Shown here one piece after another: positions 4,007-10,785 of a stretch of DNA of 21,343 bases. The notes below the pieces were generated by a model. The model was not told the DNA's origin, ran no database searches, and saw nothing but the letters and a program-made list of their open reading frames with translations. The position numbers were made by a program, and so were the translations under genes. The DNA is from a virus. The stretch lies in IMG/VR virus record IMGVR_UViG_3300022752_000451, positions 1 through 21,343 of that record; one strand, written 5' to 3'. Every line of letters begins with the position of its first letter. Position 1 is the first letter of the stretch.

Positions 4007-4558
4007 TTATCCTTGGAACCACTCTTGAGTACCAAGCTTGTTGTCTGTGTACACAAATCGATTGGTAGAATATACCATGTTGTTTTTAACAAGCCTATCG
4101 TTTTCCGACATGAGATACATCCAAGCTTCAACAATCTCAGAGCCGTTATACACCGACACAAGCCGTCGAGTATACATGCTGCCGTTACCTTCCAGCAGGT
4201 CTAGACGCTTCATCGTTGCAGAATCAACCTCATACAACTCACCCATGATTGCAAACGCATCATCAACGGCAACAGTCACCGCAGGAAAAGAACCAAGCAA
4301 AGGATGCATCCGAAAGTTACGATATACCGTTTCGGTAATACCGAAAAACTTGGAACCTTCCAAAAGCTTGTGATTACCAAAACCACGCTTGAGAGAGCCA
4401 TACACGAAAACCATGTACTTCTGGGGAAACATGGCCTCGATTTGATCGTCGCTCATGCTGCACATTTCATCCATAGCCTCTTGCTTGCGCTGGTCACACC
4501 ACGCAACATAATCAGGATCGGATGCAAGCTCTTGCATGAAAATGTCTTCGTCGTTCAT
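4007..4558 (-). CDS. Gamma-glutamylcyclotransferase-like (AIG2/GGCT fold) protein
   Basis: A 183-residue protein. After an N-terminal helical, acidic extension (residues 1-47), residues 48-180 show the GGCT/AIG2-like pattern: FVYGSLKRG (51-59, the YGSL substrate loop), NH.LL, a GELYEVD strand (106-112), LDLLEGNGSMYTRR (119-132) with Glu123 in the place of the family's catalytic glutamate, and VEAWMYLM near the end. Family members release 5-oxoproline from gamma-glutamyl amino acids or from gamma-glutamylamine crosslinks; the substrate here cannot be read. Phages carry such genes sporadically and their benefit is unknown. Start 4558 (MNDEDIF) is chosen over a GTG at 4582, which would overlap the candidate promoter. 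No ribosome binding site is visible, so the mRNA may be leaderless. Confidence 0.8.
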   Translation of the reverse strand: MNDEDIFMQELASDPDYVAWCDQRKQEAMDEMCSMSDDQIEAMFPQKYMVFVYGSLKRGFGNHKLLEGSKFFGITETVYRNFRMHPLLGSFPAVTVAVDDAFAIMGELYEVDSATMKRLDLLEGNGSMYTRRLVSVYNGSEIVEAWMYLMSENDRLVKNNMVYSTNRFVYTDNKLGTQEWFQG

Positions 4559-4564
4559 GGTAAC

Positions 4565-4593
4565 ATAATACCATACAACCACGATATTCTAAA
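4565..4593 (-). promoter_or_regulatory. Possible promoter before the GGCT-like gene
   Basis: On the minus strand TTTAGA (4593-4588), 17 bases, then TATTAT (4570-4565). The -10 matches 5 of 6 and the -35 4 of 6. The predicted start falls at or next to the ATG at 4558, implying a leaderless message, consistent with the missing ribosome binding site. The region is AT-rich, so chance matches are likely. Confidence 0.3.
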
Positions 4594-4653: not shown

Positions 4654-5595
4654 TCAGTCTGCTAGCAAGTTTTTGCCAGCCCGACCAAGTTTTTCTACCT
4701 TGGCAGCTTCAACCTCGGTGGCACTACCAAGATCGATGCTGGCTACAGTTTTGTGGTTGTCATCACCATTCTTCATAATGAACGTTGCATCCATTAGAGC
4801 AGTGACGTAATCAGCATATTCTGGATTGTTTAGAATACGGCTTCCAAACTCGCTCTTGTAGAACTTTTCGTCCACAATAATCTCCCCAGTTTTAACGTCG
4901 TTTACTTGAAAGTATTTCCATTGTGATGTACCCTCTAGTTTGATCTTCTTACCTTCAAAGATAACAGGATCTTTGCATTTCTCACAATACTCACGAAGTT
5001 CATCGAAAACGTTTTCGTCCTCTCTCACTCCCTTACCAAAGTGAATCTCAAACGATACTTCTCTCCAAGGTCTTGCAACCTTGTTCTTAATGGTCTTACA
5101 AGTTACATTGATACCAATAACAGCTTCCTTGCCGTTGATGCTTTGTTTGATTTGTTGACCACCTGTAAGCTTGATACGAGTAGATGCATGATATGGAATT
5201 GCCATACCACCGGGAGTTGTGTTATGGTTAATTTGCCCTTCTGCCAGATAAGTTTCTGTATCTTCAACCATCATATCAACGACGGCCATAGGTTCTTCAA
5301 TAAGGACAGCTTCTGGATGGTTTTGTAGTTCAACCCACTCTCCATTCAAAAGAACACGGTGAACTGATGTACCTTTCAGAGAACCAAGCTTGTAGTGTTT
5401 TTGAACGCTTGGTTTTACAACTAAAGCACTAATAGGTTTCCATACCTTTTGTTGTGTTTTTTCATCCCAGCTTTCAACTTCATATTCATCTGAGCTGGTA
5501 TCAATTTCTAGTGGTGTATCAAACCTATCCACGCCAAACCGATTAAACAACTCTGCAAATGTAAGTTCTTCTATTTGATTTTTATTTGTGTCCAT
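4654..5595 (-). CDS. uvsX: UvsX/RecA-like recombinase, C-terminal part fused behind a split-intein C-fragment
   Basis: A 313-residue protein in two parts. Residues 1-125 are the C-fragment of a split intein, ending INHN; residues 126-313 (188 aa) are the missing end of the recombinase. The extein starts TTPGGMAIPYHASTRIKL, which continues RecA's L2 loop and following strand (E. coli TTTGGNALKFYASVRL), and includes KTIKNKVARPW, matching RecA's VVKNKIAAPF. The end is charged and acidic. On its own this protein lacks both Walker motifs and cannot be an ATPase, so it makes sense only after trans-splicing to the product of the gene at 6689-7936, giving a recombinase of 420 residues. GAGG lies 9 bases before the ATG, which overlaps the end of the endonuclease gene by 14 bases. 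The symbol reflects the T4-like context; recA would be equally defensible. Confidence 0.9.
   Translation of the reverse strand: MDTNKNQIEELTFAELFNRFGVDRFDTPLEIDTSSDEYEVESWDEKTQQKVWKPISALVVKPSVQKHYKLGSLKGTSVHRVLLNGEWVELQNHPEAVLIEEPMAVVDMMVEDTETYLAEGQINHNTTPGGMAIPYHASTRIKLTGGQQIKQSINGKEAVIGINVTCKTIKNKVARPWREVSFEIHFGKGVREDENVFDELREYCEKCKDPVIFEGKKIKLEGTSQWKYFQVNDVKTGEIIVDEKFYKSEFGSRILNNPEYADYVTALMDATFIMKNGDDNHKTVASIDLGSATEVEAAKVEKLGRAGKNLLAD
5221..5595 (-). other. C-fragment (Int-C, 125 aa) of an atypically split intein
   Basis: Residues 1-125 of the gene at 4654-5595. They contain nearly the whole intein fold: a start equivalent to the segment after strand 1, VWKPISALVVKPS (51-63), which lines up with VVWKPVLRVVRKPS of the neighbouring cis intein, block B GSLKGTSVHR (71-80) with the TxxH pair T76/H79, block F VVDMMVEDTETYLAEG (105-120), and block G ending His124-Asn125 followed by +1 Thr. 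Only block A is absent; it is supplied by the 15-residue Int-N at 6692-6736. The expected chemistry is Cys1 attack, Thr+1 transesterification and Asn125 cyclisation. Confidence 0.9.
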
Positions 5596-6625
5596 TTAAT
5601 ATTTCCTCTATTCTTTCTTTGACTATAGATTTATTACCAAGTATATCCGTTTCCCAAAAAGAGTGAACTTCATACCCTTGTTTGGTAAGATTAGCAACTC
5701 TATTTTCATCTTTCAACCATATAACGGAAGCTGGTACGTTTTCGTAAAGAATCTTATCGGCAGCATATAAACGGGGATTCCCATGCCAAAAATCTCCATA
5801 ACACTCAAAAATGAGGTTATATTTTGGAATCAAAAAATCAGGATATACGTATCCTTCATCAATTGGTATAGTAGGCTCATATACAAATTCAATATCTAAA
5901 TCCAATAGTAGTAAGCCAAATTCATATTCAATCTTGTTGACATCGTAGTTTTGTAATCTGTAATTTCTTGCAAATCTACCTTTATACCAAGCTGTTAATT
6001 TTTCCTCGTCGCAGGACATTCTTGCTTGTTCCCACATTTTTTTCGAGCTTTTTGAGATTTTTTCTTTTCTTTCTGGGTTGTTGGCCGCAAATATCAACTT
6101 TTCTCTGCCGCCTTCATTGATCCATTTTTTGTACTTCTCAACTCTTTTTTGTTTTACTTCGGGAGTTTGCGCTGCCGTAACTGCTTTTTTCTTATTGTCT
6201 GGATTACTGAACCATTCCTTTTTTAACCTAGACTGTAATTCGTGATTACTAGCCTTGCGAAGTTTTTCACGGTATTCTGGTTTCGCCATTGCAACTGCAT
6301 GGTTTTGTTTCATTTTTGCTTTTACAGAAATGAAATAAGACTCAACTGTGGATTGAAAAGCTTCATCTAACAATCCTTTTTTTAACGCATAAGCAAACGC
6401 ATATTCTTTGTTGAAGAACTGCTTCACAAAGTTGTAGACAAGAACGCCTGTCTCCTCACCAAGAAAATAAGTAAAATATTCCATCTTGGAAGGAGACAGT
6501 GGCATACCATTAATACTTTTTGGATAAATTTTACTTTCGGTAAAAAGTTTTTTCAACTTTACAGTATATTTCGGAATACACTCATCAATCCAGAATTTTA
6601 AATCGATATAATCTTCAGGCTTCAT
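5582..6625 (-). CDS. Free-standing Vsr-like (EDxHD-type) homing endonuclease
   Basis: A 347-residue protein lying between the two halves of the recombinase gene. The C-terminal third has the Vsr/PD-(D/E)xK-like nuclease signature: Glu235 in KIEYEFG, YPDF (261-264), the block FECYGDFWHGNP (273-284) with the ExxxDxWH pattern, and a closing GYEVHSFWETDI (317-328). This matches the family described for fractured split-intein genes and for I-Bth0305I. Residues about 115-200 carry four short basic repeats beginning KPE, NPD, TPE and NPE, each with Lys-rich helices, similar to NUMOD3-type DNA-binding modules. Residues 1-110 are not recognised. The likely role is to cut intein-free uvsX alleles so that the locus is copied in. 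A strong AGGAGGGG precedes the ATG by 5-6 bases but lies in a hairpin (6626-6688). Confidence 0.88.
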   Translation of the reverse strand: MKPEDYIDLKFWIDECIPKYTVKLKKLFTESKIYPKSINGMPLSPSKMEYFTYFLGEETGVLVYNFVKQFFNKEYAFAYALKKGLLDEAFQSTVESYFISVKAKMKQNHAVAMAKPEYREKLRKASNHELQSRLKKEWFSNPDNKKKAVTAAQTPEVKQKRVEKYKKWINEGGREKLIFAANNPERKEKISKSSKKMWEQARMSCDEEKLTAWYKGRFARNYRLQNYDVNKIEYEFGLLLLDLDIEFVYEPTIPIDEGYVYPDFLIPKYNLIFECYGDFWHGNPRLYAADKILYENVPASVIWLKDENRVANLTKQGYEVHSFWETDILGNKSIVKERIEEILNGHK

Positions 6626-6688
6626 TTTTTCCCCTCCTAAGCTTGTCGTTGGATCTATGATCTAACTATGACGCTAGGAGGGGAAAAA
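6626..6688 (-). promoter_or_regulatory. Hairpin burying the endonuclease ribosome binding site
   Basis: The gap between the uvsX 5' gene and the endonuclease ATG is nearly all one inverted repeat. A perfect 14-bp outer stem pairs TTTTTCCCCTCCTA (6626-6639, plus strand) with TAGGAGGGGAAAAA (6675-6688). Inside are a 4-pair partial stem (6643-6646 with 6668-6671, two of them G-T) and an 8-bp stem (6648-6655 with 6659-6666, one G-T) closed by a 3-base loop. The outer stem covers the AGGAGGGG just before the ATG at 6625. After the stem comes A-rich rather than T-rich sequence, so it is not a terminator. It should hold down endonuclease translation unless a transcript starts inside it or ribosomes open it. 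Confidence 0.8.
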
Positions 6689-7936
6689 TCAAACATTTCG
6701 TCGTCTTACTTTGATTTTTGTGTCGGGGGAAACACAAGAAGGATCTCCGTACATTGTGTTGTGTGAGAGAATCCCGTTACTGAGATAAGAGTGCTCGCCT
6801 TCAACCTCAATGTCAGCAATTTCGATATCCTCCAAAGAGCTCTTAATTTGGAATGTCTCCCAGCCTCCGATAGTTTTTATAAGAAGAGGATGTTTTTTGA
6901 CTGTTTTATAAATATCTTTGGCTTCTGCATAATACATTTCGCTTGGAAAATCAACACTTCGAACAAAAACTTTATGGTCTGGTGAGCAATCAAGTGAGAA
7001 GCCAGAATGTGTGGTGATGTTTATTCTGGGGGCGCTTGGTTTTCTTACAACCCGCAAGACTGGTTTCCAAACAACGTCAGAAAAATCGTTATGATCGGCT
7101 ATCAATGTCTTCACCTCCCAACCAGATATATCAACCGGCTTTCCGATGACCATATTGTTAAAATAGATTCCTATTTCTTTAAAAAATGAACGCATGGTGC
7201 CAACACGTTCTTGATTTGTACCAACCGGACGGTAAGATATCTTTGTTTCTGGGCTCACACACCCGATCTTAACTCTTTGCTGATTTAAAAGAACCAAACA
7301 AACGTTTTTATCACCGATTACATCTGTGATTTTACGGAAGCCTTTAGAAAGCACTCTAGCAGCTAGACCAATCGTGTTCTGGTCATAATCACCTTCAATC
7401 TCTGCCTTGGGAGCAGACGCAGCAACAGAGTCCCAAATAACCGTTACCGGTACATCAGCCTTGAGATTGCGAGCCTTTTCAATAGTTGATTCAATAACCT
7501 TGAAAATGTCTTCAATACAGGTTTCTTGAATAAACACGAAACGCTTGCGAATATCGATACCAAGACCTTCAAGGTTTTCTACAGAGGTAGCGTTCTCGGT
7601 ATCAATATAAACAACAATACCATTCATCTTTTGAGTTGACTTAGCAATCTCATAAGCGATGTGAGATTTACCAGAGCTCGGTGGGCCTTGGATTTCTACA
7701 ATACGCCCTTCTGCTACACCACCATTGCGACGGTTAGAGATAATGTAGTCAAGTTGTTTGGAACCTGTAGAAATCCAACGTTTAACTGTTGTTGGAGCTT
7801 CGTCGGTACCAAGGTTAAAAGCGATTTTGTTACCAGCTTCTTTGTTGATTTGCTTGATTAGTTCAGCAGAAAAGTCTGTGTCCTCGTTTGCTGCTGGTTC
7901 GTCTAATAGAGGCTTTTTGTTTGATTTGATTGCCAT
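6689..7936 (-). CDS. uvsX: UvsX/RecA-like recombinase, N-terminal ATPase part with two intein pieces
   Basis: A 415-residue precursor. Residues 1-225 are the recombinase ATPase core: Walker A GPPSSGKS (84-91), the catalytic-Glu region around IDTENA (111-116), Walker B VTVIWDS (164-170), and LLNQQRVKIG (216-225), the RecA L2-loop start with the nucleotide-sensing Gln219. Residues 226-393 are a complete mini-intein, 394-400 (TMYGDPS) a short extein piece matching RecA VMFGNPE, and 401-415 a 15-residue intein N-fragment, followed by TGA. It forms the recombination filament only after cis-splicing and trans-splicing with the product of 4654-5595. The start at 7936 (MAIKSNKK) has AAGGAG 11 bases upstream; an in-frame start at 7990 would fall inside the -35 box. 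It has its own promoter and follows the SSB terminator. Confidence 0.93.
   Translation of the reverse strand: MAIKSNKKPLLDEPAANEDTDFSAELIKQINKEAGNKIAFNLGTDEAPTTVKRWISTGSKQLDYIISNRRNGGVAEGRIVEIQGPPSSGKSHIAYEIAKSTQKMNGIVVYIDTENATSVENLEGLGIDIRKRFVFIQETCIEDIFKVIESTIEKARNLKADVPVTVIWDSVAASAPKAEIEGDYDQNTIGLAARVLSKGFRKITDVIGDKNVCLVLLNQQRVKIGCVSPETKISYRPVGTNQERVGTMRSFFKEIGIYFNNMVIGKPVDISGWEVKTLIADHNDFSDVVWKPVLRVVRKPSAPRINITTHSGFSLDCSPDHKVFVRSVDFPSEMYYAEAKDIYKTVKKHPLLIKTIGGWETFQIKSSLEDIEIADIEVEGEHSYLSNGILSHNTMYGDPSCVSPDTKIKVRRRNV
6692..6736 (-). other. N-fragment (Int-N, 15 aa) of the split intein
   Basis: The last 15 residues of the 5' recombinase gene, CVSPDTKIKVRRRNV, followed directly by TGA. It holds only block A, with the nucleophilic Cys1. 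The partner Int-C (5221-5595) supplies everything else, giving a total intein of about 140 residues. Known atypically split inteins have N-fragments of roughly 15-25 residues (for example the AceL-TerL and VidaL types), so the length fits a known but rare class. The RRR stretch is basic, while the Int-C start is acidic (QIEELTFAEL, EIDTSSDEYEVE), consistent with charge-driven association. Confidence 0.88.
6737..6757 (-). other. Seven-residue extein between two inteins
   Basis: Codes TMYGDPS, which matches VMFGNPE in the RecA L2 DNA-binding loop. It is bounded on the left by the Asn168 end of intein 1 (SHN) and on the right by Cys1 of the split intein. Its Thr is the +1 nucleophile for intein 1 and its Ser the -1 residue for the split intein. 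Confidence 0.88.
6758..7261 (-). other. Complete cis-splicing mini-intein (168 aa)
   Basis: Residues 226-393 of the 5' recombinase gene. It starts with block A CVSPETKISY (Cys1). Block B is GFSLDCSPDHKVFV (intein residues 87-100), with Ser93-x2-His96 in place of the usual TxxH. Block F is IADIEVEGEHSYLSNG (148-163), and block G ends SHN (166-168) with +1 Thr. No LAGLIDADG, HNH or other nuclease insert is present, so it cannot home by itself. It is inserted after RVKIG of the L2 region. Its length of 168 is typical for an endonuclease-free intein. Confidence 0.92.
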
Positions 7937-7961
7937 GTATGTTTGCTCTCCTTCTTCAAAC

Positions 7962-7990
7962 AACATAACACAGCAACACTCAAAAGTCAA
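7962..7990 (-). promoter_or_regulatory. Sigma70-like promoter for uvsX
   Basis: On the minus strand TTGACT (7990-7985) and TATGTT (7967-7962) are spaced by 17 bases, matching consensus at 5 of 6 and 4 of 6. The predicted start is near 7955, leaving a leader of about 19 bases that contains AAGGAG (7953-7948). Its place just after the SSB terminator supports a separate uvsX transcript that would continue through the hairpin into the endonuclease and the C-terminal gene. Confidence 0.65.
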
Positions 7991-9055: not shown

Positions 9056-9664
9056 TTATTGAATCGAAATAACCTTTTCTTTGCCTTTACCTTGCACACA
9101 AGCAGCTTTTACAGCTTGTGAAAGAATAACACAAATCCAAGGTTCTCCTTGTGTGGGAAGATCTTCTTTAACTGACTTATTCCCAACCACAGACATAGCA
9201 TACCATTCATCAATATCAATCTCAACGTTATTTTTCGAAAGTGTAAAAAGGCTTAGTTGAGATACTGGAACGTGTTGAAACCGATCAGCAACGTTGTAAT
9301 AAACTCCAAGCTTGTCACGATGCCAATCACTTGCATTGTCTACGTAATATTCTTTGCTTTCCGTGCCAACCTTGCCAATGTCATGAAACAAAGAACAGAG
9401 AATAATGCTTGAAGTAGCAACAGAGTCCGTAAGGTTGTATACTTGACGTAGCTTGGCAGCATTCTGCAATACACGTAGAGAGTGCTCAACAAGTCCACCG
9501 GGATGACAGCAAGTATAATCCCGCTTTGTTGAAGCAGGTGCAAGCATGATTCGTTCTGCATTGTTGTCCACATAACTTAGAATAGAACCCCCTTTTGCAC
9601 CTAGCTTTGCAGCTTGTGTCTTGAATAGCTCAAAGTTCTTGATAATGATTTGTTCTTGATTCAT
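9056..9664 (-). CDS. HD-domain phosphohydrolase
   Basis: A 202-residue protein. Its metal-binding motifs are His54 and His61 in HPGGLVEHSLRV (54-65) and His94-Asp95 in SLFHDIGKVG (91-100), the HD pair. His131 (QHVPVSQ) may be the next ligand. The usual later motif with a conserved WHxG is less clear (DEWYAMSVVGNK). Related HD proteins hydrolyse phosphate esters such as nucleotides, cyclic nucleotides or 2',3'-phosphates; the substrate cannot be read. Its ATG overlaps the polymerase stop as ATGA, so the two are made together, suggesting a job in nucleotide or nucleic-acid metabolism during replication. A role in degrading host signal nucleotides is also possible. About 108 bases without a gene follow, before the SSB. 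Confidence 0.8.
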   Translation of the reverse strand: MNQEQIIIKNFELFKTQAAKLGAKGGSILSYVDNNAERIMLAPASTKRDYTCCHPGGLVEHSLRVLQNAAKLRQVYNLTDSVATSSIILCSLFHDIGKVGTESKEYYVDNASDWHRDKLGVYYNVADRFQHVPVSQLSLFTLSKNNVEIDIDEWYAMSVVGNKSVKEDLPTQGEPWICVILSQAVKAACVQGKGKEKVISIQ

Positions 9665-10785
9665 AGCGTTGAAAACCCTTTGTCTGTGGACATATAAAAC
9701 GTAGTGGTTTCTAGCTTCTTAATGTCTACACTACCCAGCTTACACAATCCATTAATCAAACTAAAACTATTTTCGTGAATATCCAAGATCAATGCATCGT
9801 GAAGAATGAATATCGGAATAATATATTCCTGCTTATCAAGCTCTTCAACATACTGGAGGATATTCAAGAAACCTAGCATAGCTACATCCATTGCTGTACT
9901 CTGCACATAATGGTTTACAAGAGTGTGTGAGGTTTCTGTTTTTACTCTTCTTCCATAAAAATTGGCAATATACCGATTACCTGTTTCCTTCCATTGTTCA
10001 TAAAGTTTTGTTCTCATAGCTTCCAAACCAAACCAATCTGAGATCTGTCCAACAGTTGATTCTAAATCTCTAATGTTAGGCAAACGCTGGCGTAGGGTTT
10101 CAATGCCTGCACCATATAGCTCCGATAACACGATCTTTTTTACCACATCACGATTAACTTCTGGATTATCTTGGAATAGAGAAGTTCTTACAGATTCATA
10201 TATGTCCTTCTCTATCTCTTCTTTTGGTTGTGTTCCACTAGTAGCTAGTAACACTCTTGGTTCCAGTGATTTGTAGTCTAGAGATACAACTGTTCCATTA
10301 TCTTTCCAACGGCTTTCTAACACGCTTCGATAAATCTTTGGAAGGTGTAACAGCATAGGCCCAGAAACAGTTTTAAACCGTCCTGTGATATTGCTTACAC
10401 GATCATATTCAACTACGTTAGCATAACCATCTTGGTTAGGCTTAAACGATTGAATATGTCCAGTTTGATCGAGTTGTGAATATTGTTGATAGCGTTCAAC
10501 ATTAATCTTTGCTGGTTGAAGATAATCAAACACTTTTTGTGTTGGAATATACACATCTTGAAGATAAGAAAGATCAAGGCTGCTTAGTTCGGTATGAAAC
10601 CTTTCTTGATCCTTCGCAATCTCGTTATAAAGCTTTTCTGGCATGGTTAAATGCCATGGAACGGCATTGCCTTGCAATCGTGGAGACAAGCCTTTAAAAG
10701 CCCGTATAAAGCGTTCTGGGGCTTGTTGCGGTTGCTTGACAAGGTATAGTTGAGAAATGAGTTGATCGATATAATCCATGACCAT
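9661..10785 (-). CDS. Family A DNA polymerase, polymerase domain only
   Basis: A 374-residue protein covering just the thumb-palm-fingers part of a Pol I type enzyme. Motifs in order: TGRFKTVSGPMLLHLP (134-149), motif A VVSLDYKSLEPRVL (166-179) with catalytic Asp170, motif B R212...K216...Y224-G225, NHYVQSTAMD (291-300), and motif C FILHDALILDI (326-336) with catalytic Asp330. There is no 3'-5' or 5'-3' exonuclease domain; E. coli Pol I is 928 residues and its Klenow polymerase part about 400. Aligned by eye, the Phe762 position of Pol I is Leu220. Motif C reads HDA where the family usually has HDE. It sits after the baseplate-hub gene and upstream of the HD gene (ATGA overlap). The start at 10785 lacks a ribosome binding site; ATG at 10779 is equally possible. 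Confidence 0.88.
   Translation of the reverse strand: MVMDYIDQLISQLYLVKQPQQAPERFIRAFKGLSPRLQGNAVPWHLTMPEKLYNEIAKDQERFHTELSSLDLSYLQDVYIPTQKVFDYLQPAKINVERYQQYSQLDQTGHIQSFKPNQDGYANVVEYDRVSNITGRFKTVSGPMLLHLPKIYRSVLESRWKDNGTVVSLDYKSLEPRVLLATSGTQPKEEIEKDIYESVRTSLFQDNPEVNRDVVKKIVLSELYGAGIETLRQRLPNIRDLESTVGQISDWFGLEAMRTKLYEQWKETGNRYIANFYGRRVKTETSHTLVNHYVQSTAMDVAMLGFLNILQYVEELDKQEYIIPIFILHDALILDIHENSFSLINGLCKLGSVDIKKLETTTFYMSTDKGFSTL

Follow-up and report, generated by a model that had tools for sequence, protein, structure and literature searches.

A contiguous intein and a split intein separated by seven residues in loop L2 of a phage UvsX recombinase, and their probable origin by separate invasions

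The gene for a UvsX/RecA-like recombinase in the window (the whole IMG/VR virus record IMGVR_UViG_3300022752_000451, 21,343 bases; the region 4654-7990 was read on the (-) strand) is interrupted twice within loop L2, first by a contiguous mini-intein (intein 1, at site 1) and, seven residues later, by a split intein (intein 2, at site 2) whose N-terminal and C-terminal fragments (IntN2 and IntC2) lie on either side of an endonuclease gene. Comparison with related loci (numbered with L below) makes it very probable that this pair represents an L2 segment of UvsX invaded at neighbouring sites by two related, separately mobile inteins. As judged from the same comparison, the L2 loop of phage UvsX is a hot spot of repeated invasion by mobile elements and not a purpose-built tandem.

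Two inteins in one loop of UvsX

The (-) strand translation runs ...LNQQRVKIG, then CVSPETKISYRPV...GEHSYLSNGILSHN (intein 1), then TMYGDPS, and then CVSPDTKIKVRRRNV followed by a stop codon; IntC2 ends ...GQINHN and continues directly into TTPGGMAIPYHASTRIKL. Removal of both inteins in silico gave KIG-TMYGDPS-TTPGG, to be compared with KIG-VMYGDPN-TTPGG in the intein-free relative L003 and KIG-VMFGNPE-TTTGG in RecA, which assigns both insertions to the RecA loop L2 segment. An earlier note, made from the sequence of this DNA alone, had described a cis mini-intein and the start of a split intein flanking only TMYGDPS within 6692-7261 and had placed both in L2; the translation of the (-) strand confirmed this description exactly to the base, and the placement agrees with L003 and RecA. 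We likewise recovered its assignment of the Thr of TMYGDPS as the +1 nucleophile of intein 1 and of the Ser as the -1 residue of intein 2, and the gene anatomy is in accord with its view that one cis-splicing and one trans-splicing reaction would be needed to make the protein. The host protein was identified as UvsX by a RecA core with Walker A and the L2 loop, with RecA folds leading the PDB search, and alignment with L001-L003 set its start codon at MAIKSNKK (7936), not at a longer TTG start.

All class 1 residues are present in intein 1, namely C1, SPDH in block B, IADIEVEGEH in block F, SHN and the +1 Thr, and C1, the block-B His, the Asp and the HN are invariant across the site-1 family alignment. 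Intein 1 matched Pfam Intein_splicing with E 7.6e-7, though below Pfam's own cut-off, and the profile of its family matched gp41-1 (E 7e-8), Aes123 PolB1 (E 2.4e-6) and DnaX (E 2e-5). In an AlphaFold 2 (AF2) model of the N-half, intein 1 (residues 226-393) reached a predicted local distance difference test score (pLDDT) of ~77-94, and its predicted fold matched the NpuDnaB intein (4o1r) at a template modelling (TM) score of 0.75, indicating the Hedgehog/intein (HINT) fold. The Pfam, gp41-1 and NpuDnaB matches together show that the intein pattern is not due to chance. Intein 1 is 89-90% identical in amino acids to the intein of L002, with a ratio of nonsynonymous to synonymous substitutions (dN/dS) of 0.156, against 0.082 in one extein and 0.017 in the other, and with a synonymous divergence (dS) of 0.42 compared with 0.27-0.30 in the exteins. 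As its dS lies near the extein values and its dN/dS is low, intein 1 is taken to be vertically inherited and, on these substitution patterns, is under purifying selection. Its autocatalytic splicing is predicted. Intein 1 has no endonuclease.

The key residues of intein 2 are also intact (Cys1, TSVH, VVDMMVED, NHN and Thr+1). It fits the atypically split class, being encoded by two genes, with an IntN of 15 amino acids (coding part 6692-6736) closed by a stop codon (6689-6691) and an IntC of 125 amino acids with blocks B, F and G. The AF2 pLDDT of IntC2 exceeded 90 over most of its length, and the related C-fragment pair L056/L057 had a dN/dS of 0.12; trans-splicing of intein 2 is predicted. 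The IntC2 gene has its own ATG; its first 14 nt are also the last 14 nt of the endonuclease gene. In tblastn searches the window endonuclease matched a 'putative VSR endonuclease' located between the PolB intein halves of Aeromonas phage Aes123, as well as a ME3 endonuclease, and it was closest to the L045 endonuclease (38.6%). The nuclease motif E/D/E..GD..H is conserved among the endonucleases of the window, Aes123, L001 and L019, and a C-terminal VSR-like nuclease domain is common to the endonucleases of site 1, site 2 and an intron found in relatives. The window enzyme would presumably cut the intein-free allele, as suggested by the sporadic distribution of the inteins and the mismatch between intein and extein divergence.

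The hairpin beside the IntN2 stop codon (Table 1) resembles the sequestration of ribosome-binding sites of T4 homing endonucleases (PMC2988022). Its counterpart in L067 also pairs the Shine-Dalgarno sequence, with a different stem sequence; in L063 the hairpin abuts the Shine-Dalgarno sequence, and in L008, which has lost the endonuclease, a hairpin with a similar loop persists.

Table 1. Features of the interrupted uvsX locus, in the direction of reading (positions in the window)
Feature	Positions	Strand	Evidence
UvsX/RecA-like recombinase N-extein, 225 amino acids, MAIKSNKK...QQRVKIG	7262..7936	-	Pfam RecA E 5.9e-37; PHROG 97 UvsX-like E 1.6e-50
Intein 1 (site 1), contiguous 168-amino-acid mini-intein, Cys1...SPDH...HN, +1 Thr	6758..7261	-	translation; family alignment; profile; fold
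Seven-residue extein piece TMYGDPS, centre of loop L2	6737..6757	-	aligns to VMYGDPN of intein-free L003
IntN2, N-fragment of split intein 2 (site 2), CVSPDTKIKVRRRNV + TGA stop	6689..6736	-	translation; N-fragment homologues broken at the same point in L045, L008, L049-L071
RNA hairpin beside IntN2 stop, pairing the Shine-Dalgarno sequence of the endonuclease gene	6626..6688	-	minimum free energy -30.3 kcal/mol, z -6.4
Free-standing VSR-like homing endonuclease gene, 347 amino acids, between the intein 2 halves	5582..6625	-	tblastn; shared C-terminal nuclease motif
IntC2, C-fragment of split intein 2, 125 amino acids, MDTNKNQ...GQINHN	5221..5595	-	translation; AF2
UvsX C-extein (TTPGGMAIPYHAST...), from +1 Thr of intein 2 to stop codon	4654..5220	-	Pfam RecA E 7e-11, profile positions 198-261

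Occupancy of the L2 sites and order of invasion

Relatives were sampled by similarity. The window is occupied at both sites, unlike its close relatives. In L003 neither site holds an intein. In L001 a split intein with its endonuclease occupies site 1, and in L002, the nearest relative, site 1 is taken by the cis mini-intein that the window also has; site 2 is empty in both. Occupancy of site 2 alone was found in more distant relatives (L008, L045, L049 and many more). Altogether, 13 distinct intein-bearing UvsX loci were found for site 1 and ~25 for site 2. When 2.9 million viral contigs were scanned with the double-signature pattern HN-x-M-x-G-D/N-P-x-C, and again with a wider pattern, one further lineage with both inteins was recovered, on five contigs from four datasets (L015-L019); the sixth match, L014, was rejected as chance. 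A pair pattern with shifted sites gave a single match in the viral contigs (L174), by chance, and the five matches of the pair signature in bacterial and archaeal genomes all fell in unrelated open reading frames, again by chance. The pair is carried by 2 of the ~35-40 distinct intein-bearing UvsX lineages examined. The earlier note had called it very unusual; it is indeed rare, and instead of many homologues with the same pair only one other lineage turned up, but it is not unique, as L015-L019 are occupied at both sites, with both inteins split.

In these five contigs, the split intein at site 1 comes with an endonuclease and the one at site 2 lacks it; after TTPGG, five codons beyond site 2, lies a group I intron that carries an endonuclease gene (Rfam RF00028, E 2.4e-8 for one half of the intron and 1.7e-4 for the other). 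UvsX is there broken by three elements within 12 codons, with two endonuclease genes (L019:3482-7781; also L015-L018), and from this layout a complete UvsX would depend on trans-splicing at two breaks and on splicing of the RNA at the third. The elements also occur in other combinations: L074 has a site-2 intein as in L015-L019 with neither neighbour present, L039 has a site-1 intein together with the group I intron, and the intron at this third site was found in L019, L039 and L081.

Two further observations concern the insertion points. Gene 204 of Salicola phage SCTP-2 (L021:2551-4521), annotated as 'hypothetical protein', is UvsX-like and holds two inteins, one within the Walker A loop and the other at the third L2 position (KISGG^SGQIF), which is the place of the L019 group I intron. 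The site-2 inteins of L050, L049 and L056-L059 lie one codon earlier than the others (GDP^TTTxGG vs GDPx^TTxGG), as if the insertion point had slid along a run of Thr codons.

Evidence of mobility comes from both sites. At site 2, the inteins of L067 and L070 are nearly identical in DNA although the UvsX genes around them have diverged (see below). At site 1, the N-extein proteins of the window and L001 are 99% identical, whereas their site-1 inteins are 48% identical with silent sites saturated, and the slot must therefore have been filled by different intein lineages in the two phages. The first C-extein residue at site 1 was Val in every one of 68 distinct empty genes, whereas all 12 occupied ones had Thr. 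Val cannot serve as a splicing nucleophile, and a change from GTN to ACN needs two substitutions; the site-1 intein therefore appears to carry the Thr codon along, and before its arrival site 1 would have lacked a nucleophile.

Most likely, site 1 (KIG^V/T) was invaded first and site 2 (GDPx^TT) then, in an allele already holding intein 1. We read intein 1 as the older occupant, with split intein 2 and its endonuclease having arrived later, or having been lost in L002. Neighbouring inteins of haloarchaeal MCM were shown to reach double occupancy mainly via alleles that already held one intein (PMC10643990); the window agrees with this pattern, as its intein 1 is endonuclease-free and also present in L002.

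Interchange between contiguous and split forms

The site-1 and site-2 intein families are homologous (hhalign E 4.5e-22). Both include contiguous as well as split inteins, and in the split ones the break falls at one common position, ~14-18 residues in, or further in for a few. State changes were counted on trees of 12 sequences (site 1) and 25 sequences (site 2), giving 3-4 changes between cis and split forms at site 1 (over bootstraps) and ~5 at site 2 (best tree), of which at least 4 are forced by well-supported branches; the root and deep branches are weak, so the trees do not settle the direction of change. An instance of such a change is seen in L067:280-2214 and L070:4870-5795, which carry the same site-2 intein at 98% nucleotide identity in much more diverged UvsX exteins; the L067 intein is split by an endonuclease gene and the L070 copy is joined by a short linker.

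For intein 1 itself, the Met of GTMRSFF aligns with the start of the L001 C-fragment (MRSLF), a position that suits re-fusion of a split intein without proving it. Tentatively, and with slightly less than even confidence, we propose that the L2-coding segment of phage UvsX offers three slots to homing elements (KIG^VMYGDPx^TTPGG^M), that the homologous inteins of this hot spot switch repeatedly between a split form with endonuclease and a contiguous form, and that intein 1 is a re-fused split intein whose TMRSFF Met is a former start codon. If true, intein 1 would represent evolution from split back to cis. The loci supply many new short-IntN split inteins and, to set beside them, contiguous homologues that are joined where the others break, and this set is material for asking how split inteins arise and whether reversion occurs.

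Maturation, alternative explanations and known systems

In the most likely course of maturation, intein 1 would fold and cis-splice during or soon after translation, via its Cys1 and the Thr+1 of TMYGDPS, leaving a precursor that ends in ...KIG-TMYGDPS-IntN2; this precursor would bind IntC2-UvsX(C) and trans-splice via the Cys1 of IntN2 and the Thr+1 of TTPGG, resulting in intact UvsX. Cis-splicing probably runs before trans-splicing, because it is intramolecular, while trans-splicing awaits a partner encoded ~1.1 kb downstream. No order would be chemically forced, since the Thr (+1 of intein 1) and the Ser (-1 of intein 2) differ and no catalytic residue is shared. As L002 and L001, and L008 and L045, carry one intein with the neighbouring site empty, each family seems able to work without the other, and the mutual constraint of the two reactions considered in the earlier note is neither supported nor needed.

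Several points weigh against the reading of two separate invasions. The order of invasion is based on one relative, L002, in which intein 2 may have been lost. Block B of intein 1 is SPDH and not the common TxxH, yet its Ser is common to the whole family. The contig could be a chimera, yet its frames and the 14-nt overlap fit together, and relatives show each of the two arrangements by itself. Beyond the anatomy, key residues, homology, allelic states and selection, the reading draws on splicing activity, splicing order and endonuclease specificity that are predicted, and two inteins this close might splice poorly in practice.

It seems unlikely that the tandem is a functional unit, with its splicing reactions coupled or regulated (intein 1 leaving first, or gating by single-stranded DNA or redox state) so as to time the supply of active recombinase. 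Both insertions do lie in a loop contacting single-stranded DNA, the seven-residue spacing makes steric influence plausible, and two inteins within Mycobacterium smegmatis DnaB respond differently to stress (PMC6195587). However, each family is found alone with the other site empty (L001, L002, L028, L045, L008), pairs are rare, the second one is built differently, from two split inteins, no conserved element spans the pair, and the two reactions use different catalytic residues.

It is very unlikely that the assembly joined a phage strain bearing the site-1 intein to another bearing the site-2 split intein. The window is indeed a 21-kb contig from a metagenome, L002 is occupied at site 1 alone, and the exact pair is missing from all close relatives; but the C-extein beside intein 2 is 98.5% identical to that of L002, whose site 2 is empty, so the donor would need nearly the same UvsX. 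The overlap of the endonuclease and IntC2 genes and all frames are intact, and the second doubly occupied lineage was assembled on five contigs from four datasets. We consider it highly improbable that intein 1 is a dead remnant, with only intein 2 splicing and the product non-functional or the gene a decoy: the Ser in place of Thr in block B could point that way, but Cys1, the block-B His, the block-F Asp, the penultimate His, the terminal Asn and Thr+1 are present and (nearly) invariant in the family, dN/dS is 0.156 and the exteins are strongly conserved. An RNA-level split, in which the endonuclease segment is an intron or is bypassed by ribosomes and intein 2 is made as one chain, could draw on the strong hairpin after the IntN2 stop and on the group I introns a few codons away in related loci, but is hardly credible and was rejected, since IntN2 ends in an intact TGA with a second in-frame stop (TAG) shortly after, IntC2 has its own ATG, the same break occurs in many relatives with very different spacers (1 to 1270 nt), and an Rfam search of window 5400-7400 with E up to 1 gave no match, group I intron included.

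The pair was compared with known systems. The fractured-gene layout is said to have been originally described by Dassa et al. in 2009. The Aes123 PolB1 split intein (JN377899; structure 9hth) shares it with intein 2, as a fractured phage replication gene with the IntN half, an overlapping VSR-like endonuclease gene and the IntC half in this order; the nuclease is related and, as given above, the site-1 profile matches the intein. It differs from the window in its host gene, in being a single intein and in having no adjacent cis intein. The atypically split inteins with short IntN, VidaL (16 amino acids, 6vgv), PolB16 OarG (15 amino acids) and AceL-TerL (25 amino acids), reviewed in PMC13014065, likewise have the break right after the first beta-hairpin (S1-type), as does the window with its 15-amino-acid IntN, but no tandem is described in that review. 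VidaL was considered as the closest structural relative, for which the sequence gave no support: its match to the site-1 profile reached only E 0.1, and it was absent from the matches of the site-2 profile.

Haloarchaeal MCM has several homing inteins at close sites (a-d) of one ATPase gene, some lining the channel for single-stranded DNA; in contrast to the window pair, all are cis, the host is an archaeal replicative helicase, and the sites are in separate motifs (Walker A, DNA channel) and not in one short loop (PMC10643990). M. smegmatis DnaB has two inteins in one DNA-metabolism protein, both of them cis (PMC6195587). The open-licence literature yielded no paper joining UvsX and a split intein, nor any description of cis and split inteins with seven residues between them, a three-slot L2 hot spot or paired cis and split families at one site, which is not proof of novelty. 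The Mycobacterium leprae RecA intein presumably occupies the same L2 loop at a third position, inside VMFG^SPE, as a single large intein.

With one cis and one trans reaction around a seven-residue extein, the window pair offers a test of the minimal workable intein spacing, which bears on multi-intein protein engineering, and it provides unusually good natural comparisons for experiment.

Two neighbouring genes were also noted on the (-) strand. Directly after UvsX lies a gamma-glutamylcyclotransferase-like (GGACT) gene (window 4007-4582), which is kept in L001-L003. At 9661-10785 there is a family A DNA polymerase of 374 amino acids, much below the usual size, whose upstream part may be missing or separate.
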